From: Chrysomallon squamiferum
Taxonomy: Eukaryota > Mollusca > Gastropoda > Neomphalida > Peltospiridae
Direction of reading: 5' to 3'
Assembly: GCA_012295275.1 (NCBI GenBank)
Contig: CM022672.1
Coordinates: 15,078,625 to 15,142,624 of the forward strand
Length of the DNA: 64,000 nt
Position numbers and translations under genes: made by a program
In this document: positions 1 through 33,097 of the stretch, piece after piece
Layout of the letters: each line of letters starts with the position of its first letter
How positions within the stretch are numbered: position 1 is the first letter of the stretch
Notes under the pieces: generated by a model
Database searches by the model: none
What the model was told of the DNA's origin: nothing
The model's input: only the letters and a program-made list of their open reading frames with translations

Positions 1-166
1 AATATTATTCACAATCAAAACCAAACAAATAATTTAAAAAAAAAAAAAAAAAACTGTCTGAAATAATGGTAAAGATTATTAATGATTAAAGAAAATAAAT
101 GGAAGTAGTGCATTTTGCCTTAATGGTTTAAACAAGCTATCACCAAGCTCTAACAAGAGTGCTAAC

Positions 167-3100
167 CTCAAGAGCTCCACCCTGTACTTTCTTTATTCCT
201 ATCATATTGAGAGGCAGCAGATCATCTAGCATCATGACAGCATCACACACCATGTTAGAAAAGAATCCTTTCTGTGAGGCAACCAGTTTTGAACTCAGAG
301 CAGTAGCAGCACATTTCTCTAACAACTTTCTCTGTTCTCTACAATTATGAATAAAAACAGGTCAGTTATCTTCTTTTTTGTTCACATCTACATCTCTGTA
401 CTGTGGACAGAAAGCCATTGTGTATCTTCTACTGCAGTTTCATTTGTTGTATAATTATTTCATAAGACTATTCATACACTTTACACCAGGCAATACTAAT
501 CACAATTGGGATATATCTACTAACATCACAGCTCACTGCTTAATTGCAGAAAATGACTATGCAAAAATTGTACATCAAGCACATAGCATGAAAGGTCTAA
601 CATCTAAGGTAAGACTAGGCATAAGGAAAGCTTACTACGAGTAAGAAGAAAAAATCAGTATTATGTAGACTTGTGGACATAGGCATATACAATCCACTGT
701 GCACGATCATTAAAAATCATTAATGCTGATGAAAGTATTTGATGAACTTGTAAAAATAAGCCTACATGTACATTAAAAATGTGCAGTGTTCGACAAATTG
801 TACATACAGAGTTTGTTAGGTAAACACTGAATAGAACTTAACATGATTACACCTGTAACAGTTCCTTGATTTCAGACAAACATATTTTATTTCAAATAGT
901 AGACTGTTAATCTGAATTTGTTTGAATATATAACTATGCAGTTTATTCAGTGTTCACACAAGAAAATTAATATAACCATTTAAACATCCTACTGAAAATA
1001 ATTTTTCAAAAGTATCATTAGAACATTTTGTTTTAACACTTTCCTTTTTTCCTGAAAACATAATTTTTAGCAAGTAAGAACTAGGCAGAGTAAAACTTAC
1101 TTCATATCACTTTTCTTTGTTTTTACAGAAATTTCTTTTGTTTTTTCCACAGCCTGAAAAATAAACATGATTTTTGCCAAATAAAAAATCAAGAATTTGG
1201 TCCATTAGGCAAATGTGCAAAACATTTAAAAGACAAAATATTTAATCAGATGAATGTGACAAAATATAATTATACAGTTTCAGTTGTTAATCATTATTAT
1301 TTTGCCAAATAAAAAAATTTGTTTTTACAGATTTTCCATTTGTTTTTGTCACTGCAGTGGTGAAACATTTAAAAGACAAAATATTTAATCAGATGAATGT
1401 GACAAAATATAATTATACAGTTTCAAATCGTATGATTTTTGCCAAATAAAAAATCATGGTTGCGAGGAATTTGGTCCATTAGTGCCAAATGTCACTGCAG
1501 TGGTGAAACATTTAAAAGACAAAATATTTAATCAGATGAATGTGACAAAATATAATTATACAGTTTCAGTTGTTAATCGTATTATTTTGCAGACTTCAGA
1601 TGAATTGTAATTACTAAAAATTTGCAGTTGTTCACATTAGAAACCACTTGATATATTATTCTGTTTAAGTAAACGTGTATTATGTCCACTGCATATCAAG
1701 ATCAGATTTCAGTTCAACAGATAATAACCTCCTAAATGTAGCAACTGTTTCTTCAGGTTCTTTTTGTGACTTAATACTTACTAAATTTAATGCTTTTCTA
1801 TATGCCCTGATAATGATTTGTGGGTGAACTCCTTCCTCGACATAAGGTTTGGCCTGTTTTAGAAATTCCCCTGCAAGCAATGTTACAGTAGTCGTACCAT
1901 CTCCAACCTTTCAGAAAATACAACAGAAGAAAATTAGAACAGAAAATCTATGCCTGCAAAAGTTCACCAATAACAAATGTAAATTTAACAAGTCAGTGCT
2001 GTGTACAGAAAGGAATCAAGAACTTACTTCATCTTTTTGTAAATTTACGTTCAAACTGAAATATTGATAACTGTGTCTGTAAATCACTGCAGTGTATGTA
2101 TTTAGTGAGGAATTAAAAGGAAATGATGAAAGAATATTGATTTAATAAAGTTTTGCTACATACCTCAGCATCTTGAGATTTAGCAATGTCTACAAGAGTT
2201 CTTGCAGCAGGATGTATAACGTCTAAGGTCTTTAAAATAGTAGCTCCATCATTAGATATTGTGGCTTTTCCTATAATTAAAATATAACATGGAACATGTA
2301 TACTTCAGGTAATCATTTTTTTTTTTTTTTTTTTTTGAAAACTTGTCATAATTGTACTCAACTACCTAAGTAAGAAAAATAAAAGAATTGTAGCATGTAT
2401 TTATGAATCCAGATATTACCTCCAGAATCCACTATAAGTTTGTCCATCCCACGAGGACCAAGAGTTGTACGTACAGCATCAGAAACAGCCAGACATGCAC
2501 TTATGTTGCTGACAATTTGTGGGACACCCTGGGAGGTGTCTGTTCCCTCCTTCAGCAAGATGATTGGTGCTTGCTGAAGTTAAAATTAAAAATATCAAGT
2601 GTTTATTTTACATTATTATTCCATACACATCATGTAGGTGTGTAAAAGCTAAGAATTTGGAAACATTTTCATAACTATATAAATACATTTCAATCCTAAA
2701 TGTGATTCTCAATAACATTCTTCCATTTTATTAGTCATTCTCCTTAATGTTTTAGGTCTCATGTATTTGAAAACTGGTTTCTCCTTTAACAAACTCTACT
2801 TTGGAGTTTGGGTTTCTTTATGAATTCTTATCCTAGCTGGTGTGCATATTCGTTGGCTTATCTAAAGTCGTAAAGAACAGATAACTTTTGTGGAATTTTA
2901 TTCAGTTTACATAAGCATTAGTTTGGCTTAACATATTTCCTAAATATGTATGGCATGTTATAAAATAAGTTTATTTCATATATATATATGATATAGATTT
3001 TCACAGCTAACATTAGACTAGTGGGGAGAACTTTCTTTGGGCTCTGTCAAACACAACTTCTGTAAATTACTGATGTTTAAAATATCAGATTTATATTACG

Positions 3101-3396
3101 GGTGTGTTACTATAAATCTGATGGAAAGACAAAAGTATTCTTAAGATGATTAATTCTTACGTACAAACTGTCATTGTGTCAAGTAAGTACGACGAATATT
3201 TTATTGATATTTGGCAGTTGCTATGATACTTTTAAAAAATAATATAATTTGAATGAACCATCAGTGTAAAAAAATAAAACATTGTCTATTTTAAAAAATA
3301 ATAACTGTTTCTGTTTATTTTTTGCATCATGAAAATTGTTATGAATTAATAGTCAGATTGAAGAGATTAAAATCCGAACACATTTCTACTCACCAT
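167..3396 (-). CDS. CCT7: CCT7, T-complex protein 1 subunit eta (N-terminal 205 residues; gene runs off left edge)
   Basis: One subunit of the cytosolic group II chaperonin TRiC/CCT, which folds actin, tubulin and WD40 proteins with ATP. Coding exons on the minus strand are 3396-3394, 2573-2420, 2270-2164, 1907-1782, 1153-1101 and 338-167; all junctions are GT/AG and in phase, giving 205 residues. The start ATG is the last three bases of exon 1, directly before GTGAGT, and splices to a segment reading [12 protein letters not shown], the family N-terminus. Equatorial-domain motifs follow: [19 protein letters not shown] and [16 protein letters not shown] (nucleotide-binding region), then [12 protein letters not shown] and, in exon 6, [13 protein letters not shown] and [13 protein letters not shown], entering the apical domain. 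The remaining part (family length about 540 residues) lies off the window. The upstream neighbour is divergent. Seen: exons and motifs. Known: chaperonin role. Confidence is high because the similarity is continuous across six exons. Confidence 0.96.
1166..1590. repeat. Three-copy tandem repeat, 143-bp period, in CCT7 intron
   Basis: The block beginning ACATTTAAAAGACAAAA recurs at 1222, 1365 and 1508, exactly 143 bp apart each time. Each copy continues for about 60 nearly identical bases (through ATTATACAGTTTCA). Segments between the blocks (GCCAAATAAAAAAT and TTTGGTCCATTAG) are also shared but more variable, and copies 2 and 3 share CACTGCAGTGGTGAAA. The near-identity points to a recent local duplication. 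Confidence 0.85.
1318..1356 (-). pseudogene. Decayed copy of CCT7 exon 5 inside the 143-bp repeat
   Basis: On the minus strand this stretch reads CTGCAG then a segment resembling the true exon at 1153-1101; both end in TCTGTAAAAACAAA. About 13 bases at that end are identical and the rest is roughly 70 percent alike by eye. The copy opens with TGA in the corresponding region and lacks the GTAAGT donor, so it would not be a usable exon. It could also be chance A-rich similarity. Confidence 0.35.
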
Positions 3397-3413
3397 TTTG
3401 TCGGAATGTTTCT

Positions 3414-3426
3414 TTCTGGAAAATTC
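3414..3426. promoter_or_regulatory. Three-unit heat-shock element upstream of CCT7
   Basis: TTCTGGAAAATTC is a perfect inverted triplet of the HSF half-site (TTC nn GAA nn TTC), 18 bp upstream of the CCT7 start codon and probably in the 5' UTR or core promoter. Cytosolic chaperonin genes are known targets of heat-shock factors in other animals. Function here is inferred from the motif only. Confidence 0.5.
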
Positions 3427-3746
3427 CGATACGGGCGATAACTCTAACGCATTTCATCAAATAATAATTAATGACATTGTTATTTACGTTTCGTCTTTAT
3501 TTATTTACTTATTATGAATGAATGAATGAATTTTTAAATGTCTCATCTATGATGCACCAGAAGCAGTTGTTATCCATAATTAAAGGGCTATTATGTTAAT
3601 ATTATGATCGTTAATTAGACATAATTTCATTAAACTATTTTTAAAATTTTAGAATTAATTTATGGGATATGATGTTTTTGAATCTATTTGCCCGCATACA
3701 TATATATAGATATAGATATTATTTATTTCAGTTTTACGTTGCAATA

Positions 3747-3749
<3 letters not shown>

Positions 3750-3782
<33 letters not shown>

Positions 3783-3811
3783 CTCTCTTTATTTTATTTA
3801 TTTGTTTATTC

Positions 3812-3877
<66 letters not shown>

Positions 3878-3886
3878 TTTATTTAT
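3750..3886. repeat. Compound microsatellite (AT)n, (ATT)n, (TTTA)n
   Basis: AT dinucleotides to about 3780, then at least 14 ATT/TTA trinucleotides (3817-3860), then TTTA tetranucleotides to 3886. Pure simple repeat in the divergent promoter region. Confidence 0.95.
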
Positions 3887-4589
3887 TGCATACCATGAAG
3901 GCACAAAGTCGAATGAAATTTAAAAATAGGAATTCGAGATCAATGTAAGAGTTTATGTGCATGAGCGAGCGCCTATATCATAATGTGTTTTGTTCTTTAA
4001 TATTAAATGCTTTTCGAACATAATACCCTGGTAAGTAGCGTGCAGTGTTTGAATATCTAACAATGCTTATATATTCAACTGTCACATACTGATTAGATTT
4101 ACGTGACTGCCTTGAAAGAAGTCAAAACGAAACCAGGTTCAATAACAGCCTGACAAATCGTATTATATATATATACACTTGTAATACTCAACTCTGGTTG
4201 ATAACAGTAAACTCAGGCTATATTTCTCGCGGTTGTTATGTTTTGTTCAGACTTGCATTAATCGAAGCGAGAATTGCCAACATTTGCGTCAGTGGTAACA
4301 ATAAGGCGTAAGTTATATATTGTTTGTTCTGGATTTTATTTTGTGGATGGATAACGAATGTATTTGAAAATGTTCTTCATGAATATGTCTGTTTAACAGA
4401 ATCAGATTGGTAAGATAATTCAGAATTAAGGACATAAGAAAGTGCACGGCCGGCATTATAAATTGATCACAAAGAGAAATTGCTGTTAATAATACTAATA
4501 ATAATTCACTGAGCTATTACCGAAACATAAATACTATCAGGTCGGGAATAAAAGAGAAATATTAATTTGACCTCTAATACTATATCAAA

Positions 4590-6126
4590 ATGGATTTTTC
4601 GAAATTTCGACAGTCAGGTGATCTATCTGATATCACAGTAACCGTCGATGACTCGGAGTTCAAACTTCACAAATTCCCGTTATTTGCGAAGTCGGATTAC
4701 TTCTGCAGTTTGGCCCGGTCTGGATCGACGGATTCTACGGTTGAACTAGAATCATTTCCAGGAGGACCGCAAGTATTTAGTCTTGTAGCTGACTTCTGCT
4801 ATAACATGCCGGTTGACTTTACCAAGAACAATATCGTATACATAAGATGCGGAGCCGAGTACTTACGAATGAATGGGCTTGATAACTTGGCAGAAATATC
4901 CGAAAAATTCCTCCACGACACAATTACATCAGCAAAGATGAGTAGATCAACTGCAGGAATAATAACCCTTTTACTCTACTGCAGCACTGTAGAGAAATTA
5001 GCAGAGAAAACAGGAATTGTATCCCACTGCATTGAAGCACTGGTTGACTGTTGGCTAAAACCGCCAACAAAATTCAGTCCTACATTCAGAAAGCCTCAAC
5101 TAGATATTCACACTGACGATCTGGCTTTGAAGAACTTGTGTTCACTTCCAAGTATTTGGTTTGTTAATATTCTTGCACTGGGACGTGATAAGGGTGTTAA
5201 GTTGTCTGACTTAGCAGAGATGGCAGTAAAATATGTGTCATCTGTTCTTGAACGTGCAGAAACCGAAGACCCGAAGAGCAGATCCGAACAAGGAATAGCT
5301 AAAGCTATCGAAATCAAATCAACATCAACAATCGACGACAGTGACATCGATTTAAGCACTATATCAAAGAGTCCATCTATTATTACGCCACTAAGTCCGT
5401 CGCTTACGTCATCAGAAACACGTAGTTCATTAGTGAGTTCACCAGCTTCTAAAATCATCGACTGCAGCTTCAAAGAGAGTAAAAGAGAACCTGCTGCAGT
5501 CAGAGATCCAGGGAAAATTTTGGACGCTGTGTTGATGAGTCTACCAGAGGAGGCTTACTCTGGACCATTCATGACAACTGAATGGTTGACGAAGGTTCTG
5601 CGAGTTGCTACAGTTCGTGGGTGTTCGTGCCGAAGATTTTTAGTAAAGATAGCAAGTGAAATGCTAAACACGCTTTCGCCTGAAGATCTGTGCATTATAT
5701 CGCCCTCGGTGCTTCACGACATAGTGGTGGAGTCGTCTGGTCAGGATGGAGTGAATGCGGAAAAAGCTGCAAAACTTGTAGACACTTACATGTCAGAAAT
5801 GGCGAAAAAAGGAGTACTGACAGCCGAGACGTTCAAACTTCTTGCTTCGGCAGCGCCACCTGATTGCAGAAGCAGTCACGATAAAATATATGATGCTTTG
5901 GAATACATCTTGAAATCAGGTTGGTATTACAATATATCCAAATTTCCATCACCACCCCAAAAGGTTTTAGATCCCAATCAATCCCAGTATGACTGATAAA
6001 TATTATCACCATTTCAATCAGTTCTTTTCTCTTTGATGAAACTGTGATCTGTTACTAGTCATTATTACTGGGATCCAAAAGTTCAACTTGCTTTAAATAT
6101 AAATAAATAAATAAATATTATTTTAA

Positions 6127-6184
<58 letters not shown>

Positions 6185-7157
6185 AGAAAGACAAAATTAG
6201 CTCGGACCAGAGGCAGGAATTGCTGGACATTGTGAACTTTAACCTAATGAGTGAAGCAGGCCTTCAGAGGGCGTGCGATTCTCAGCTCGTGCCACCGTCT
6301 TACGTGGCCAGAGGAGCCCTCAGTCTTTGTGCCAGACTGAGAGCGGAACTCGATTCGGTTAAGTATATCGCTCAGATGCAGGAGCAGGAACTCCAGAAGT
6401 ATCATCGGCAAAAGTCGGACACGTCACCCCCGGGAAACGAACTCACTAACATGAAGAACCGATCAGATTCAGGTGGGTGTTTTTTTTTTTTTTTTTTTTT
6501 TTTGTTCCACTGAGTTTATATTTCTCTAGAAATCTAGAAAGAAAGAAAACAAAAATTATCATATATATTACATAATTTTTGTTTTATTTATCAAATATGT
6601 TTTAAATTCAGTCTTTTAAGCGATGAACCAGAAATTTTAAAATTTATAATTATAAAATATATTGAATGGTTTCCTACGATTACATCATAATATAACATTC
6701 ATTTGTTAGATAAATAATAATGTGTTCTGTTCTTTTGAGTTATTTTAAAATATACATCTGTTCGTTTTTCGTATCAACGTAGTAAATGTAATCTGACAGT
6801 GACTTGAACATTTATTTCTACACAGGTTTCTCTGAGATTCCTGCTAAAATCAGTCCCACATCAACCGACGCTGTCAAGGCTGCTCATGACGTTCTCTCTG
6901 CAGCTAGAACTAAACTGGCCACCCAGGATATTTCGAATTTCAGGCCTGTTCATCGATACCCTCCACAGTCCACTGCGTACGGCTACGTGGGAACAGTCGA
7001 ACATGACATCACTTTCGAGGATGAGATGGAATTCAAATTTGATCGATCTTTCAGAAGCCTCGACCAGAGAATCAGACAAAGGCCAACCTTTACAAGTTCC
7101 AGTTCATCAAACCATTCCACACCTCGGTCTTATTTCCCTTATTCTTACCGATACTAA
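4590..7157 (+). CDS. BTB/POZ protein with plant-type NPH3-like domain, 649 aa
   Basis: Three coding exons, 4590-5919, 6185-6472 and 6826-7157, joined in phase by GT/AG introns. The BTB domain (residues about 12-115) has SDITVTVDDSEFKLHKFPL, then VELESFPGGPQVF, FCYNM and CGAEYLRM, the order and spacing of the BTB domain of the plant NPH3/RPT2 family. A Ser/Thr-rich linker (about 218-305) splits two blocks resembling the NPH3 domain: TDDLALKNLCSLPS...GVKLSDLAEMAVKYV (about 175-218) and, after the linker, LDAVLMSLPEE, FLVKIASEML, KAAKLVDTYM, HDKIYDALEYILK (about 308-443), finishing in exon 2 with a segment like the family's final helices. A short coiled coil (about 494-516) and a basic, Ser/Tyr-rich tail follow. 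Plant relatives are about 600 residues and act as CUL3 adaptors in phototropism and auxin signalling; the animal role is unknown. Alternative: a very divergent BTB-BACK protein. Lying between CCT7 and PRC1 in similar AT-rich sequence, it does not look like contamination. Confidence 0.85.
6127..6182. repeat. (ATT)n microsatellite abutting a splice acceptor
   Basis: About 18 ATT units run directly into the CAG acceptor of the BTB-NPH3 intron 1 (exon begins 6185). No conventional pyrimidine tract lies between them, so the repeat takes the place of the polypyrimidine tract. On the other side of exon 2, a 23-base T run starts 7 bases after the donor. Confidence 0.9.
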
Positions 7158-9909: not shown

Positions 9910-12900
9910 ATGGCGAGTTTTAGGTAAGTATTTAAAATACTAAATGTAGGATGTAAATTTAGTCATTTAATTTATAATTAAATAATTGGATTGTGTTTGC
10001 AGTTCGAAAATTATAAACTTAACCGTAGGCGTATACAGCTGAGGATTCCAAAATATACGGGGTATACCAACGTTTATTTTCCAAACAAAAACAAAGAAAG
10101 AAAAGAAATCAGCTGTATCAGTTATAATCCTAGTGTTAATCTATTTATTATTATCTAAAATATGTAAAACAGCAATACATTGATTATTTAGATAGTTATG
10201 ACTCTCTGATTCATTAAATTTACAATTGAATATCATGAATTTGAATATTTGTGTCTTGTCTATCCGCGGGCACCAGAACTCGGCTTGTGCTTATTATAAT
10301 ATTAATTATTAGTTATAATATCAGTTTTGATATACTGCTATCAGATAATAATAATGACTGACAGCATACAAGAACTGAACAAATCGAATTGTACTGTATA
10401 GTGAAGATAAACAATTGAATTACTAAATTAGATTTGACAAATTGTATTATTCTGTTAACACAATAACAGTATTTTAAGCAAATTAATGCCATTTATAAAT
10501 AACAATTCATACTCGTCTTATTCATTGAACTGTTGTAGTAGTGGTAGTAGTAGTAATAATAAATTTGTATGGATGTAAATTGAACTGTGAACAAATTTCC
10601 ATAATTATTGTCAAGTCCAGCAGCTTCGACAAACAATATATTTGACTGCAGTAGCAAGAGATTTTAATGTTTCCTTTTTGATGTAGATGATAATAACACA
10701 TATACAGTATTAGCTCTATATTTTTCTTATTAATATAATATAAACATTTTTACCTTTCAGTCCGGAAACAATCCGGCTAGGAGTGGTAGAAAAACTTGAT
10801 GTTGTTTTTGGTAAACTGTATGAGATATGGACTGATATTGGGATCTGCGAGAGTCAGATGGAAGAACGAGCAGGAGCAGTTCTAAAACATCTTGACAATC
10901 TGCTTGATGAGATGGTTGAGGAAGAGAGTGTACTGAGAAATGAGATTCAGCAGAATATTCAAGAACATTCAGCAGAAGTTGCTGCACTCTGTACAGAATT
11001 GCATTTACCACAGTATAAGGTATTATTATTAAATTCTCTTCCTAAAGCTGTTATAACACACAGCAATCTATACCAAATTATATTTTCATGTATATAAGAT
11101 ATTTCATGAAGATTTCACATTGGTTTCTCATCCTAAAATTGTATTAGTGCATTCACCATTGTACAAGGATTTATTATTTCAGAACTGTTTCTTCTTACCC
11201 TAAAAGTATTCTAACCTGAAAATATGTCAAGAATGCTTAGAAAAGATGTCTGCACTACAGAATTACATTTACCACAGTTAAATGTTTTAATTACAGTTAA
11301 TGAATGAATGAACAGAATATGTCAATAGCAAAATTTAAAGAGCTACTTTGTGATGAGTTGAATTGAACTGAACTTTATTCATACTCAGGCTGTAGTCTGT
11401 GGCAAGTGAGGACACATTCATGTAGAATTTAATATAATTATTGCAGTTATAATAGGATTGTGGATTTACAGTAATGTGCATAATAATAAAAAAATATATC
11501 AGCTAGAGGATTTACAAAAAATGTTCACGATTAGATTACAGAAAATAGAATGTTTTCTAAGGACACCAGCTTTTTTAGAGTTAAATAATTTACAAAACAA
11601 GAATATACTTGATTTACATTGACAAAAAAACATTCTTAAAAACATATATATAAATATATAATGAAACTGTTGTCATGGACATACTGGGCACAATGGACAT
11701 ATTCTGTTTTCTAATGGTATATATTACCATCTTCTGCTTTCAATAGGAAGATTACCATTTGAATGTCTAAACTGTAACAGTGGGCATCAGTATTTTTTCT
11801 CTGTAAAGTATAACATTGAAATATGTCTCAGATGCAACTGTATCTTTAAATAGTTTATAAATACTGATCTATAAGCCTTGAGTTAATGCATGATTCTAAC
11901 ATGATTTAGAAGCACTAGTGATAATCACATATATGTACAGCCAACATCATTGAGAACAGATTTAGCATGTAATATCAATATGTGGTTTAAAATATTGGTG
12001 ATATTATATTCAGTAATAGTCTGTACACTAGACGACTAGTAATGATAAGTACTTTCCCATGATTAATTAAAACCAGAAAACAATTATTTTTACTTTTATA
12101 ATAATATACACTGAATAAAGTACAAGTTCTCCATTTAATAAGTTCATTGGAGTAGATTTCCTCACAGGTAATAACAATTTCATAACCTGGTTACATAATT
12201 TTTCCAAAATCCCCAGATTTTCCTACCATATAGAAAAACTGGTAAAACCATGTCAATTAACTTAGGTTGACACTGGATGGACATCTTTCTTGTGTCATGT
12301 CAAAGCAGACAGTGCAGGCATCTTTGACCTGACTTAGCATATCATAAAATAATAAAAATGGCTGCATCTGTCTGCTTCTTGGCTTCCATCACATTTCGAT
12401 TCTTCATCCTAAGTTGGTACTTTGCACACGCAGCTCAGGTATCTGTGGCAGGAGATCCAAACCTAAGATTGAACTTTGTAGTGGAACACTGAGTAGTAGA
12501 GCGAATAACTGACATGGTTCTTGAATAACTCGTATTTTTTTTGATTCTGATGTCACTTGGCAAGTACTTCCAGCCTGGTGTCCCTCTACGACCATAGTGG
12601 CTGGCTCTGCAGGTAAACATCTGGAAGTGGGCCATGACTAGCTCTTCCTTTGCCAACTTTACAAGAACCACCCCTGCTTTCTGGATGTGCATTAATGTAA
12701 TTAGTAATAATTAACCAAATGAACTTTGAACTTAAAACAAATAACACTAATTCTACAATCTTTCAGTGAATTCCATTCTACCAAGATTCATATTAAATCA
12801 CTTTAAATAGTTTCTATCAGCCTTTGAGTTGTTTTTTGAGCACATCTAGGATATCTCGGGGTTGATGTATTGGTAGTTGCAGTACATCGTCAACAGTATC

Positions 12901-15900
12901 ATTAATGGCATTAGAAGCATCCTTGATGGCATTAGAAGTAACTGTTCTGTTTTTCATCTCGGTCTCTACCTGAACAGTTCATTCAACAAATTCCATTTCA
13001 GATTGAGTACCAACTGCCGACAGTTCTGTGGAAGCATTCCTATTATCCTCGGAATACGCACATTTACAAAGTTGATCCACATGTCTTTTACACACAAAAT
13101 CTCCAACTTTCACTCTGTAGGTAACAGGCCCTAGCTGACACAGTACTTTTCTACTCAACCACTTGTCAGATCCTCTGTAGTTCTTCACTTGAACTGAATC
13201 TCCAATATTGAACACTCATGTTTTACTTACTTTTGGAATAGTTCTCTTTTTAACAGTTCTCCAAACAGAACGCAAGCTATTCAATCTTGTTTTTTCTGCT
13301 TTCCACATTTAACAATCACCTCAATTTGCCCAAGGACTGGTACCACTTCATCTGTATAAGTTTTCAACACAATTGATGTTGATTTCAATACACTGTTTTC
13401 TTCAATTTTTCCTGATAACTCTTATTAGAAATTATCGAAACAGAAGCACCAGTATCTACTTCCATTTTGAATGGCACACCATTGAGTTCCAATGAAATTT
13501 GAATTTCTTTCACTTTCATAGATTTTGCTGAGAAAATCATTGTCATTACTTTCCATTGCAACCTCTTTATTTTCTAGAACAGCTTTTGTAATTTCTGATT
13601 CAGTTTTGTTACTTCCACTTTCTTCATGAACAACATGAATTTTGAAACCTGTTTCAGATTCAGTATTTTCACTTTCCAAATCATTGGTACCACTTTCTGA
13701 TTCCGTTAGGTCCCTATCAGAATCTTAATTCACAACATGAAATTTAGAGTTTTTCTTTTTCAACTTTTCAAATTTCTTTTTTTCTTTTTCCATCTGTTTA
13801 TGTTCCTGTCTTTCTACTTTTTTCTTTTAATTTTGACATTTTCTACTCTAATGTCCTGTTTCATTACACTTTTTGCCTTTTTATAAAACCATGCATCATG
13901 ATGGTGATTAGTTTTACCACACCGGAAGCATTCAATGACAGAAACTTTGTGGAACTTTTCTGTTTCTGACTTAATTCCAATTTTCAGCATGCCAGTTTCT
14001 CTAGCTGCCATTTCCATACTAACAGCTATTTGCAAGGCTTTCCTCAGTGATAAGTCATGTTCAGAGAGAAGTTTTTTCTGTATTGACTTTTCAGACAGAC
14101 CACAGACAAAAATGTCTCTTAATGCTTCAGTCAAAAATGCATCAAATTCACAATGTTCTGTCAGTTTTCTTAATTCAGCCAAAAATCCACTTACAGTCTC
14201 TCCAGGCTCTTGTTTCTGTTGATAGAATTTGAACCGTTCCGCAGTCACCAAAGGTTTTGGTTTGAGATAATTTCCTATCAAGGTTTTCAATTGTTTGTAA
14301 GTCTTACTTGCCGGGTTCTCAGGCCAAGTCAGATTTTGAATCAACCTGTAAGTCTTGACACCAGATACAGACAACAAAATGGAACGTTTCTTTTCAGCAT
14401 CGTCTACATCATTCGCCAACAGATACTGTTCCAAATGTTCAATGTATTCATCCCAGTGGGAACTTTTTATGTCAAACTCTTCAACCTTACTACAGGTAGC
14501 CATATTTCATAAAGAGTTAATTTCAGGAAACAGTTCATCTCATCCTCGTTGGCAATTGTTATGTTTTAGCATTAAAATGTAAAGTTCATTTCAGTTTCCA
14601 AACAATTTATTTCATTTCAAAATGGCTACGTACAAAAACTAACATACATTCACGATGATGTCATATAATTATATCTCCCTTGTTCCATTTCCCCTAAACA
14701 TTATAAACTGTAACAGTGTTAACCATAACACCATTTAGATACAGCAAATCCTGCTTAAACTTCAAATAGTAATATCATGTGTTTCAAGATACAGCTTTAA
14801 TCTATTATTTAACACAGTGGTTTAGAGTTTACCAAGGCATCTAAGTAATGTAATATGTATGTCATTTTCTAGAGTATTTTTATCACCACTTTTATACATT
14901 GGCTTGATTATACCTGACTAACCATGAGTCAAGGAAGATATCCATTTCAAACACTAAATTAAAAGGTTTGACATAAACATATATCATCAACAGTTTGCTT
15001 AATAAATTAATTAATTATATTATCTAGACCTGAAGCTTTGTTGTTCTTTGCATGAAGCTAACTAATGGTGTAGCATGTGTAATTTGTTTATTCACTCTTG
15101 TTACACTGTGCCTGCGACTGTGCCATGTTGGGCCTGTAGTTTCCACTGCATGTCTGGTGTGTACCTGTCAGTACCATAGTTCTTACAATTAATGCACTTC
15201 ACATCAACAGTTTGCTTAATACATTTATTAATTATATTGTCTGGACCTGAAGCTTTGTTGTTCTTGAGATATTTAACAACTATAAATATTTCACTTTCTC
15301 AAACTGTGGTAAAATCTGCTTCTGGAGTGGGATCATCACTAATGTTTACATCTTTAAAGTCTTGGTACAGTGCTTCTAAAGGTGGTAAATTACAGTCAAG
15401 TTTGTTGTGTTTTTAGGAGTGTACAAAAAGCTCTCATGCCATATCTGCTAAAATCTTTAATTTAATTTTTTTATTTTCCAGTTACGTCTTAATATTATAT
15501 TCTTGTACTGTTTACTTGCCTTTAGAAGTCATTGCTTGTTATTTATTGTTTTCCTATTTTTGTAATCTGTTCTGGTTTCTCTGTGTTGCATTGACTACCT
15601 AACTATGCCTTATTTCTGCAGTTGGGGATAGATCTGCTTCTAGTATATCCAAATATATTTACTGCAGTGTTCACGAATAAGCGACTGACACTGTTCACCA
15701 TGGTATTAAGCTACCATACAACCGAATCTTTAAACTTAAACCATAATATGTATTCAGATGTGTTTTGATAAACTAGGTATGTGCTTCTCAGTTTAACATG
15801 TGATTTTTCATTTCTGTTGTTTGTATATACTGTATAACCTGGTATTTCTACATTATCAATATCTTCAAGTTTGGCATCTACTAGGCACAAAATATCATAC

Positions 15901-18900
15901 TGATTAAACATTTTTTTTATAAATTCTGGTATATGCAGTTTTGTTTCCAAGCCACAAGCATGAAAAATAAAATATTTACAGAATCAGAAGTGTTGACTGT
16001 ATTTGTGTAACCATGGTTGTTCGATACTTCAGTCATTTCATTTTGATTGTCACCAGTGTCAATCTTCCGGCTGTCTTAAGCATGGTCTTCTGTCGGTGAG
16101 GTGTAATTGCAGGCACACTTGTTCGGATTTATAATTTGTGGGATGTATTATGGCTTGTATCTGAATAAAAAGTTGGTCATACCACTAATGTCACACGGAT
16201 TCAATAAATCTAGCCTCAATAAATGTTTCTGTGTTCCACAGACTCATGATTTACTGACACCAAAATGAATTCTTTCAAAACTTCAGAATTTCTTCTGAGA
16301 ATTTCTCTGACTTTCAGTCTTGGTATTTGGTGGCATAGTGGTGTTTGCATATGATCAAATGCAAAAGTGTTTTCATGTTTCATTTGTTCTTTAAGCAATT
16401 AATTTAGTACTTGCTCTGCATCCTTGTTGTCTTTTTCTAGAATTCAGTTAAAAATCAGGTTGTGTATGAATATGTAACACATTTTCACAAAGATCTTCAT
16501 AATAATGTTAGAAACTGTCAGTATCATTATAACATTTGGCTTACTTTTTCCTTCATAATTTCAACCACATCTGCTATTTTCTTTCTTTCTACACAGGATT
16601 CTTCAAAGCTAGTATTTACAAACTTTATGGATTTTTCTGGATAAAACAGACTGGCTTTTAAATAATTATTACTGTTAGGAAAAGTAATCATATTTATTTA
16701 TAATTCAGCAAAAGGATGGCATGTCCATGATACAAAGAGAGAAGGATCTCAGAGCCAAACTGGATAGCTTGAAAGCTGAAAAATCGGAGAGATTGAGGAT
16801 TTATAAAAACTTCAAACTTCAAGACCAGCATCTGTGTGACGTCCTTCAGATGACTCCCTACTACATCCCATCAGGAACAATCCCCACCAAGGAGCAGTTA
16901 ACTGAACTGGAAAAACACATAGCAGCAAGGAATGTTGAAAAGGTTTGTTAAAATACAGCACAGATGATTTCATGTTAAAAACTTAAAGGAATGGAAGGCA
17001 GTTCAGTGGTCAAAAGTGTTGATGTAAAGCATAATTTCACATGATTGGACTGTTTTAGTTAGACTTTTTATGTCAGAGTGAGACAGAAAGGTTTCCTAAT
17101 ACGTTTTATAAATGTACGTGTGACTTTTTTCTTTTTAGTCAAACTGTCAGCATTAGCTTTTTTTCAATTTTAAAGTAACTATTCAAGTCCAAACTAAAAA
17201 TTTATTTTTATTTAAATATTATAGATTGATTTGTTTGACAGCATATGCATATTCATTAATAAAGAGTCAGATTACATTAATTAAATCAAAGGTTTGATGT
17301 TATTTTAACTTGTAATATGTATTTTGTTTTTGTTTTTGTAATAGCGTGAAAGACAAGCTAAGTTTACATCGACCAAGAAAAAGATTATTGAGCTGTTTAA
17401 CTTACTGGAGTGCAACCCAGACACATCGTTTGAGAGGGAAATTGTCTGTGAAGATGATGATTCTTTTATACTGTCAACAGAAAACATGACGGCACTGAAG
17501 AGTCTGCATGAAGAGGTACAAGGGATGATTTACAGTGTCCATTTACAGCACATTAGTTATAACAAAATCTTTGGTTTATCAGACCAGCACAGTGTTTATT
17601 TATCGTCTATTTCTACCTTAGTTCTGATTTTTTAAATATTAAATGATAGTACCTAACTTGATAGTGAAGAGCTTAAATATAAATATGTATTATCTTATGT
17701 CAGTAAGAAAACGAAACAGTTATATTTAAAACAGTGGTGAAATTTTTAAATTTAACTCTTTTAATTTAAACTTTAATTTTAATTTTTCCAGTATTGTTGC
17801 TGATTTCTCTAACAACGTTTTGTATTCTCAAAAAAATAACATACAGCAAATATGAATGCTGCCATTTATTCTGTTTAACCATAATAGACATAAAAGTTTC
17901 AATGAATTAGCACTATATTTAATTATATATATTTTGTTATCCTGTTTGTTTAATTACATCTGTATGATAGCCAATGTAATTTCATGTGTGGGTATCATTA
18001 AACATTCATTCATTCATTCATTGAATTTTATTCTCTGTAACTTCTTTTGTTTTGAGTATATGGTGTATGGTAGAGGTATATGCTAAGCACACTTGTGTGG
18101 GTAAATAAGCAAAATCTAGTAATGGCAGATGCAAAAAGTAAAAACAAATTTGTACAGTATTTGCTAAATAGACATTCTCATCTCGAAAATTATGATTTGC
18201 GTTATTTTCTAAAATTATAATTTGCGTTATGTTATATTCAGTTAAAATATTGTGCACATTTTACTAACATATTAAAACTTATCATACTGAACCTGCTCTG
18301 CTGTGATATTTGGAAAGGGATATTTAGCAACCACATATTTTCTCCAAAAAGTAGTTAGAAAAAAAATTGGTGAATTATGGTAAGTTGTAAATACATTTTG
18401 TGTTCAGAAATTTATAAGGATATTTTTTTTCTCTTTATTTTTAAGCTTGAAAATAAGTATGAGAACTTAAAACAGGCCACAATGACACTGTGGTCAGATC
18501 TGTATGCTCTCTGGAACAGGCTTGATGTATCAGATGAAGAGAGAGAAAAATTCAAAGAAGGCAAAGATGGACATAAACCATTAGTTCTGGATGCCTTGCG
18601 AAAAGAAATCGCTAGGTGTGAACAACTTAAATTTCAAAACATCCAGCGTTTTGTTGATGGCATCAGGAGTGAACTTGAGGTGTTGTGGAACAAGTGTTAC
18701 TTCAGCAAAGAGCAGCGAGAATTGTTTAAATTTATGCATGAAGGTTTGTTTTTTTAGACATTGTTTAAACATTTGACCTTTCTTCATTTCTGTTTCTGTA
18801 AGAAAGTGAATTGTAGAAGAAGAAAAAACCCCATATCTGTTAACCTCAAAAACTCAATCAAAAGGATTCCAATGATTTCATTATTTATAAATTAAATGTA

Positions 18901-31422: not shown

Positions 31423-31872
31423 CTATGCTTGCACCTGGACCTTGAGTAACATCTTCAAATGACAAGTCATATCATCACACTTTGCTGGTTCATGATTGGT
31501 ACTGCCAGGCATCCAGTGTGATGGAGGTTTAGGAAGTACTTTAGGTGAAGGTGGATCACTGAATTTGGCACCAGCATAGGCAACAACAGACTTCTCTTCA
31601 AGGCTGGGTTCAATCGTTATTGATGGGCAGCGAGCTCTTTTCTTAGCCCTTTCTCCTTCCATCATAACTTGATGCTGACGATTGCGATTTGACACCAATG
31701 TTTTATTTGGATGCTGCGATTTTGTCGATGCATTTCTCATGTCATTCTCTTTGGACCCAGAATATCTTTTCTGCTTCAAATGATTAAAAGGTCCTTTTAA
31801 CTGATGCCCCATTTTGACATTTGACCTCTTTTTGTCCTTGATATTTGGCATAGCCAGTGTAGACAAAACCAT
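31423..31872 (-). CDS. PNRC2: PNRC2-like proline-rich nuclear receptor coactivator, 149 aa
   Basis: Vertebrate PNRC2 links the decapping activator DCP1A to UPF1 in nonsense-mediated decay and binds nuclear receptors. This single-exon frame has a basic, low-complexity N-terminal half with KKRAR (77-81), then the family core: YAGAKFS (99-105), [15 protein letters not shown] (106-120), the proline-rich segment that binds the DCP1 EVH1 domain (SEPPSPS in vertebrates), and near the C-terminus LKMLLKVQV, carrying the LXXLL nuclear-receptor box (139-143). Vertebrate PNRC2 has about 139 residues and an intronless CDS, matching this one. Start choice: ATG at 31872 begins [11 protein letters not shown]; an upstream in-frame ATG at 31929 would add 19 hydrophobic residues of no family character, and an ATG at 31851 is also possible. 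The gene is minus-strand and convergent with PRC1. Confidence 0.85.
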
Positions 31873-33097
31873 TTGAAATTCTAACAAGCACCACACCAAA
31901 TATTTGACTAAATATTTGAAAACACACAATTACTCGATGTTCGTTCTTGTAATCCACAAAAAATACCGTTTTCTGGTTGTTGTTTTGTTTTTTCAAAGCT
32001 TTTTCACAAATTATTCGAATAAGCTTTGTTTACATTTACAAATGAAAGATGGCGTCTTCGTCTTGTTCTTCTTTCCGATATTATCGTCGGTAATTGAACA
32101 AAATTCTCAAAAACGTCAACTTTTTCTTCAACGAATTAAGTCTTTAAATAATTCCTAGCGTCTTTACAAGAAAAATAATTCGAATCAAAGATTTTTAAAT
32201 TAAAAAAGTCATAAAAATACCTGGGCTTTACCCTCTCTACTCTTCAAAACTAATCTCCTTCCGTCTACGTTTCTACTCCTGCTGATGTCAGCCAGTCATA
32301 TCTACCAATGGGCACCTGCTAGAGGCGCCACGTGATGAACCCAGCCAATGATTACTGTGCTAAGTTTAGAATTGTCGTCAAGCTCTACAAATAGCTAGTT
32401 TCGACATGAGATAAACGAAGAGGGTAATAAAAGTTTGTTCGATCCCAATGTCTTTGTGAAACTGATTTTAAAACAATATTACAGATAGGCTGTTAGTTTT
32501 ACTGATGTTGTTATTATTTCATAAAGTGATTAAAGTCCAAGCATTTCCATTCGTTAAGAAACAACACTACGTTAAATTGCACTTGACTAAAATATTAGTT
32601 GTTTTATCGTTGTGTTTATTGCAGTTTTTGAATTCATGATGATGTACCTGATAAATGAATACAGAATATATTTAAAACCATTCTGCCATGATTAATTATA
32701 TAAAATATATTCAAATTTAAACTATGTTCAGACTATATAGCAAATAGCGAACAAACAGCATTTTCTTTGCAGGGATAATTGACCTTTTAGACGACAAACA
32801 TCAACCGATAACAAACTAATAAATAAGACTACATTTAATACTGGTGTTGTTTCAACTTTAACAACGAAAATAAATTATCTTACATAAATTTTCATAACCC
32901 TTCACCCTCGAAGCGCTTGCAGAAGCAGAAAGAAAATTTTTAATGCTTTTGTGTGTTTTTTCTTTATTTCTTTCATTTTGATCATAATCTGACGTCAGTG
33001 CTGCTTTTGCACATATATTCAGTTTTGAAATAAAATATGAGCGACTTTTTATTATTAATATTTATTTATTTATTTATTTTTTTAAGGTAAAAGAAAT

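Follow-up and report, generated by a model that had tools for sequence, protein, structure and literature searches.

Can a gene family that has been assigned to plants be a genuine component of an animal genome? This question is raised by a 64,000-nucleotide stretch of DNA from the gastropod Chrysomallon squamiferum (assembly GCA_012295275.1, contig CM022672.1, here C8, positions 15078625-15142624), hereafter the window, in which a gene at positions 4590-7157 of the + strand, about 15.08 Mb along the contig, encodes a protein of the BTB-NPH3 (NRL) family. In plants, the NPH3 family contributes to growth in the direction of light. In excerpts of the respective papers, the family has been called plant-specific (PMC8531446), has been considered a possible "plant-specific adaptation" with no member outside Arabidopsis among 17 eukaryotes (PMC1257465), and has been described as appearing "at the origin of plants" (PMC4327156). 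The evidence presented below makes it likely that the window holds a functional gene, whose product is homologous along both its BTB and its NPH3 regions to the plant NRL proteins and which has been inherited vertically within animals, probably since at least the ancestor of cnidarians and bilaterians.

A BTB-NPH3 gene in a gastropod

Read from the letters, the gene is a three-exon frame that starts with an ATG at 4590 and encodes 649 amino acids. An earlier sequence-only reading of this DNA had described a complete in-phase gene of plant BTB-NPH3 type; its coordinates proved exact, with both introns of the GT-AG kind, and the family assignment is borne out by profile comparisons. Pfam lists NPH3 in the protein at 62.2 bits (E 7.9e-17, cut-off 27, best stretch residues 389-466) and BTB at 51.2 bits, with neither BACK (PF07707) nor kelch repeats listed at E <= 1, so that BACK does not outscore NPH3. 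Its N-terminal BTB domain is of the NRL kind (LHKFPL, PGG, FCY, RCAAEYLEM, GNL). When the NPH3 parts of 32 plant proteins, with the BTB domain removed, were used as a plant-only profile, the protein scored 59.5 bits. Of the 44 animal parts compared with it, even the lowest-scoring, from Xenia at 11.9, exceeded the top score among 1100 shuffles (6.3 bits). The Pfam scan listed NPH3 in 42 of 43 animal members and in 32 of 32 plant proteins, and BACK (E <= 0.01) in none of the 43 animal members. When animal and plant profiles were compared with hhalign, the BTB-less profiles (29 animal and 16 plant rows) aligned over 319 columns with an E of 6.4e-18, and the BTB parts gave an E of 2e-36 with 40% identity across 100 columns. 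The parts of the gene and its product are as follows.

4590..5919 (+): exon 1, residues 1-443 plus the opening base of codon 444, covering the BTB domain and the greater part of NPH3; supported by the open frame, a GT donor and Pfam
4596..4895 (+): BTB domain, residues 3-102, with the HKFPL / FPGG / FCY / RC-AEYL-M signature; Pfam 51.2 bits
4629..4673 (+): charged pair Asp14 to Lys28, 14 residues apart, a spacing as in Asp28/Lys42 of potato NRL1
4896..5255 (+): residues 103-222, opening part of the NPH3 region; modelled helices of the Gigantopelta ortholog P0001 resemble 3-box/BACK here
5256..5525 (+): variable linker, predicted disordered, residues 223-312; low predicted local distance difference test (pLDDT) scores at 239-278 in P0001
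5526..5919 (+): conserved second NPH3 part within exon 1, residues 313-443, including KLVDTYMSEMAKKGVLTAETFKLLA...HDKIYDALEYILK
5920..6184 (+): intron 1, phase 1, GT-AG, with a TTA microsatellite ahead of the acceptor
6185..6472 (+): exon 2, end of the NPH3 domain followed by a long helix
6292..6417 (+): predicted long helix after NPH3, at the coiled-coil position; residues 458-499 of P0001, about 480-521 here, carried over from the P0001 model through a 22-residue length difference
6473..6825 (+): intron 2, phase 1, GT-AG
6826..7157 (+): exon 3, tail, predicted disordered for the most part, with conserved islands
7131..7154 (+): C-terminal YFPYSYRY, at the site of the basic-x-S-x-S (14-3-3) end of half of the sampled plants
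7155-7157 (+): stop codon

This order of parts, a BTB domain followed by an NPH3 region and a long helix at the coiled-coil position, is that of the plant NRL proteins, with which the animal proteins also share Pfam NPH3, agreeing predicted secondary structure and, in a joint alignment, 57 positions at which one residue forms the majority, of 70% or more, in both the 44 animal and the 32 plant rows. Unlike the plant proteins, the animal members carry a variable linker inside the NPH3 region and a tail of their own, and they fall on the opposite side of a branch in the family tree. In the same alignment, D14 is found in 44/44 animal and 31/32 plant rows, and K28 in 35/44 and 32/32, respectively. 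For the corresponding Asp28/Lys42 of potato NRL1, excerpts of one study report that the residues are required for interaction with SWAP70 and that mutation of the BTB pocket prevents dimerisation (PMC10830690).

The gene was found once in the genome. The PF03000 profile has a single match in the 404.6 Mb, 22-contig assembly and none in any of 14 control genomes, while a search of the genome with the whole protein returned its own three exons (exon 1 at 100% identity and 970.9 bits, exon 2 at 199.5 bits) and six weak BTB-only matches of 22-25 bits. Arabidopsis, according to an excerpt of the genome-scale comparison mentioned above, has 21 members (PMC1257465).

Conservation and spread in animals

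The nearest relative is the protein P0001 of Gigantopelta aegis, also of the family Peltospiridae, which matches the entire query at 80% identity, and whose alignment, compared by eye, continues over both splice junctions. An identity of this extent indicates that the frame is not a product of chance. Identity is distributed unevenly: 87/102 in the BTB domain, 104/120 in the first NPH3 part (103-222), 146/158 in the second (313-470), 32/90 in the linker, 89/110 in the tail (516-625) and 20/24 at the end, a pattern expected of a protein under constraint. Among 176 proteins collected, there are 53 animal-like proteins shorter than 520 residues, and in 34 of these the alignment ends at window residues 441-445, intron 1 starting after residue 443; these have been read as unspliced open frames. 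Alignment ends earlier in 15 of the 53 and later in four, with P0082, P0085 and P0113 also ending outside 441-445. Three of the 15, the snail-like frames P0065, P0066 and P0067, end at 336-339 and may mark an additional intron without counterpart in the window gene.

Three protein searches, each of which scored the 8000 candidates sharing most words, gave 80, 71 and 246 matches (120 of the 246 listed), with named relatives from seven phyla: Mollusca, Nemertea, Annelida, Platyhelminthes, Rotifera, Hemichordata and Cnidaria. Among molluscs, Gigantopelta, Haliotis, Patella, Batillaria, Littorina, Nucella, Babylonia, Lymnaea, Physella, Biomphalaria, Bulinus, Plakobranchus and Candidula are represented, along with Ruditapes, Mercenaria, Mactra, Mya, Dreissena, Sinanodonta, Argopecten, Ylistrum, Ostrea, Saccostrea, Pinctada, Mytilus and Solemya. 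Other members come from the nemerteans Lineus and Tubulanus, the annelids Capitella and Owenia, the flatworms Macrostomum and Cichlidogyrus and the rotifer Adineta and, outside the spiralians, from the hemichordates Glandiceps and Ptychodera and the octocoral Xenia. Lineage was looked up in the taxonomy for Gigantopelta, Xenia and Glandiceps; the other genera are placed in the phyla to which we take them to belong. Vertebrate, arthropod, nematode, sponge and protist names are lacking among the matches listed, which is not proof of their absence. Two patterns from the animal alignment gave 71 matches in a prokaryote collection and 35 in the IMG/VR viral collection, none of which encodes a relative, a weak negative in both cases; NCBIfam, a library for bacteria and archaea, assigned no family to four members. 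Two further proteins, P0068 and P0134, combine an NPH3-type BTB domain (in P0068 with 49% identity over 24% of the query) with repeated units like NLISMAADIL and have no precomputed NPH3 domain.

In a tree of 56 rows, the 34 animal and 22 plant proteins lie on opposite sides of a single branch with a support of 100/100; seven of the 34 animal rows were taken as animal by similarity, and long branches were flagged. Within animals, the window protein joins Gigantopelta (100/100) and then Haliotis (99/95), the nine gastropods group at 99/97 and the 16 molluscs at 100/100. After removal of the longest rows, a 35-row tree recovered the branch between animals and plants again at 100/100, with a loss of resolution in the grouping of hemichordates and octocorals. 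Among the origins proposed by the sequence-only reading, an old family kept in animals is therefore the best supported, given the seven phyla and the position of all 34 animal rows on one side of the branch; its retention in "a few animal lineages" is too narrow a description of the spread observed.

The animal records are already present in databases, under automatically assigned names, among them "root phototropism protein 2-like" (Gigantopelta, Xenia), "DOT3-like protein" (Mya) and "At5g48800-like" and with precomputed NPH3 domains; the named Gigantopelta, Xenia and Mya entries are the ortholog or fellow members of the family, and what the window contains is an animal variant of a known family. 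In the PMC open-access literature no description of animal NPH3 members was found, nor anything on the NPH3 domain together with horizontal gene transfer, and excerpts of four papers (PMC1257465, PMC6650413, PMC11477308, PMC4327156) hold no account of such members. Open-access papers naming the "root phototropism protein" all concern plants by their titles, one of them dealing with galls made by aphids.

Predicted structure, CUL3 and the C-terminal tail

Structural comparison has been based on AlphaFold models, with the animal protein represented by its 80% identical ortholog P0001. This model and that of the plant protein P0102 agree in secondary structure at 351 of 427 positions, each part scoring above its slid controls, and in both the helices follow the plant order, with the coiled-coil helix placed behind NPH3; the plant-like model anticipated by the sequence-only reading was thus obtained, on the ortholog. 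In fold searches, the best solved matches of the P0001 model are BTB/3-box/BACK proteins bound to CUL3, with KBTBD2, KLHL11 and SPOP among those resembling it. When the PDB was searched by sequence, only BTB matches and no NPH3 domain were returned for the window protein (best 60 of 77) and for P0102 (21 rows). The lists of the fold searches are also filled by BTB proteins, and the second half of NPH3 is consequently barely tested by them.

The animal protein probably acts as a dimeric adaptor or scaffold of the CUL3 type. As in the CUL3-binding BTB-BACK proteins (KBTBD2, KLHL11, vaccinia A55), its BTB fold is followed in the predicted model by helices that may correspond to 3-box/BACK; unlike them, it lacks Pfam BACK and kelch repeats and has an additional conserved helical second part and a long helix. 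In the proposed mechanism, dimerisation of the BTB domain would involve the conserved Asp14/Lys28 pocket, and this domain together with the 3-box/BACK-like helices after it would dock on CUL3, while the second NPH3 part and the coiled coil would recruit a client at a membrane or scaffold. Regulation may fall to the disordered tail with its animal-specific islands, which would take the place of a plant tail that AGC kinases phosphorylate and 14-3-3 proteins bind. Nothing in this scheme implies light-sensing inputs like those of plants.

CUL3 binding is inferred here from a resemblance of fold, and such likeness does not show binding. The plant model also has these BTB/3-box/BACK proteins among its best matches, which are no better than chains consisting of BTB only. 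A serious rival, held to be somewhat short of an even prospect, is that the protein does not work with CUL3 and has a scaffold role only, at the membrane or for kinases, comparable to the one reported for plant NPY proteins in PIN polarity. Excerpts of one paper call the biochemical function of plant NPH3 unresolved and report that NPY proteins interact with AGC kinases and maintain the polar localisation of PIN (PMC8531357). The long conserved tail following the long helix would suit such a role, against which stand the CUL3-bound proteins that head the structural matches of the animal model.

A basic-x-S-x-S end occurs in 16 of 32 plants and in none of 41 animal ends (among which that of P0114 is probably an intron read-through), and a bare S/T-X1-2-COOH in four of the 41 (P0018, P0060, P0062, P0105). 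According to excerpts of two papers (PMC8531446, PMC8531357), Arabidopsis NPH3 binds 14-3-3 through its third-last Ser, which is phosphorylated. The window protein, which ends in SYRY, lacks this C-terminal site (RxS, third-last Ser), which not all members of the plant family have either. Alignment of the tails revealed conserved islands in exon 3 (VKAAxxVLSAARxKL; EHDIxxxDExxFKFDRxFRSLDxR), which are kept in gastropods together with the end YFPYSxRY or nearly so. Proteins of hemichordates and of the octocoral group share an extra C-terminal domain instead (97 columns, E 8.8e-13 by hhalign), for which the precomputed domains hold no Pfam name and which the mollusc tail does not match (E 0.27 for the octocoral group and 0.11 for hemichordates). 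About 100 residues long and bearing a WP[FY] motif close to its end, this domain begins at about residue 446 in P0084 and P0105 and at about 450-459 in P0119-P0126.

Origin of the animal gene and its meaning

An even chance is given to the view that BTB-NPH3 predates the split between plants and animals, or at least the animal radiation, and was no plant invention. The family would then have been retained in spiralians, hemichordates and octocorals and be absent from the animals that were surveyed first. In plants, the number of members would later have grown and the tail would have been linked, through 14-3-3 binding, to phototropins and further AGC kinases, and animals would have kept other tails, with an extra C-terminal domain in the hemichordate and octocoral-like lineages. 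Free trees place the animals outside three sampled plant groups, including the RPT2 subfamily, though not significantly, and approximately unbiased (AU) tests do not reject a grouping of animals with RPT2 (p 0.167) or with At5g48800 (p 0.171). The animals may therefore attach at other points on the plant side, and either common descent accompanied by many losses or a single very old transfer may account for the family.

Such a transfer, from the streptophyte (green) stem lineage into an early animal or the reverse, before cnidarians and bilaterians separated and followed by vertical inheritance in animals, is considered rather unlikely, yet well short of negligible. It would explain the patchy spread, with named matches only from animals and land plants among those listed, and is compatible with the two AU results. 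The position of the animals in the free trees speaks against it, a weak point given its lack of significance, as does the first animal exon, which holds the whole BTB and most of NPH3, where potato NRL1 has its BTB domain over exons 1 and 2 according to an excerpt of its description (PMC10830690), likewise a weak point, concerning one plant gene. Horizontal transfer, as proposed by the sequence-only reading, thus survives in its very old form and falls as a recent gift from a land plant, which is not credible because of the spread over animals.

A BTB-BACK protein grown NPH3-like through convergence, the remaining origin considered in that reading, is very improbable. The likeness of the modelled BTB domain and following helices to KBTBD2, KLHL11 and SPOP would agree with it; it has been rejected on the Pfam results for NPH3 and BACK given above and on the same fold searches with the plant model, and the residues conserved colinearly with plants in the BTB domain and both NPH3 parts also oppose it. 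Despite the plant names attached automatically to some entries, a gene acquired recently from a land plant has been rejected as barely conceivable, and so has contamination of the assembly with plant DNA, an idea that the sequence-only reading had also argued against, in view of the seven animal phyla together on one side of the branch, a peltospirid snail as nearest relative, the intron break common to many animal open reading frames, and a locus at about 15.08 Mb of a contig in the 22-contig assembly with animal genes downstream.

Animal neighbours had been claimed for both sides of the gene, and this holds downstream only, no gene having been identified in the upstream flank (window 1-4589). 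Exons of MAP65/ASE1 (PRC1, a cytokinesis regulator) lie at 10744-18754 (+), where four frames match PF03999 in order; the one compared with structures matches solved PRC1. Among these exons, on the opposite strand, a PNMA-like gag frame at 13817-14506 (-; PF14893, 27.4 bits, cut-off 25) has an apparent CCHC knuckle by eye and may be a retroelement remnant or a domesticated gag. A short frame at 15714-15983 (-), without a Pfam match, resembles by eye an endonuclease fragment of a long interspersed nuclear element (LINE), and a frame with a PNRC motif at 31426-31929 (-; PF15365, 23.3 bits, cut-off 21) perhaps belongs to a PNRC-type gene. Rfam and tRNA scans of the 64-kb window were empty.

The presence of members in seven animal phyla contradicts the description of the family as plant-specific, and makes its origin testable through protist genomes. 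For animal biologists, it brings forward an unstudied conserved gene that is open to knock-down in the tractable Macrostomum, Capitella and oyster, and for plant biologists an outgroup in which NPH3 has a role without phototropin or auxin. If the family does predate the separation of plants and animals, the animal gene would reveal the role that NPH3 had prior to light and auxin.
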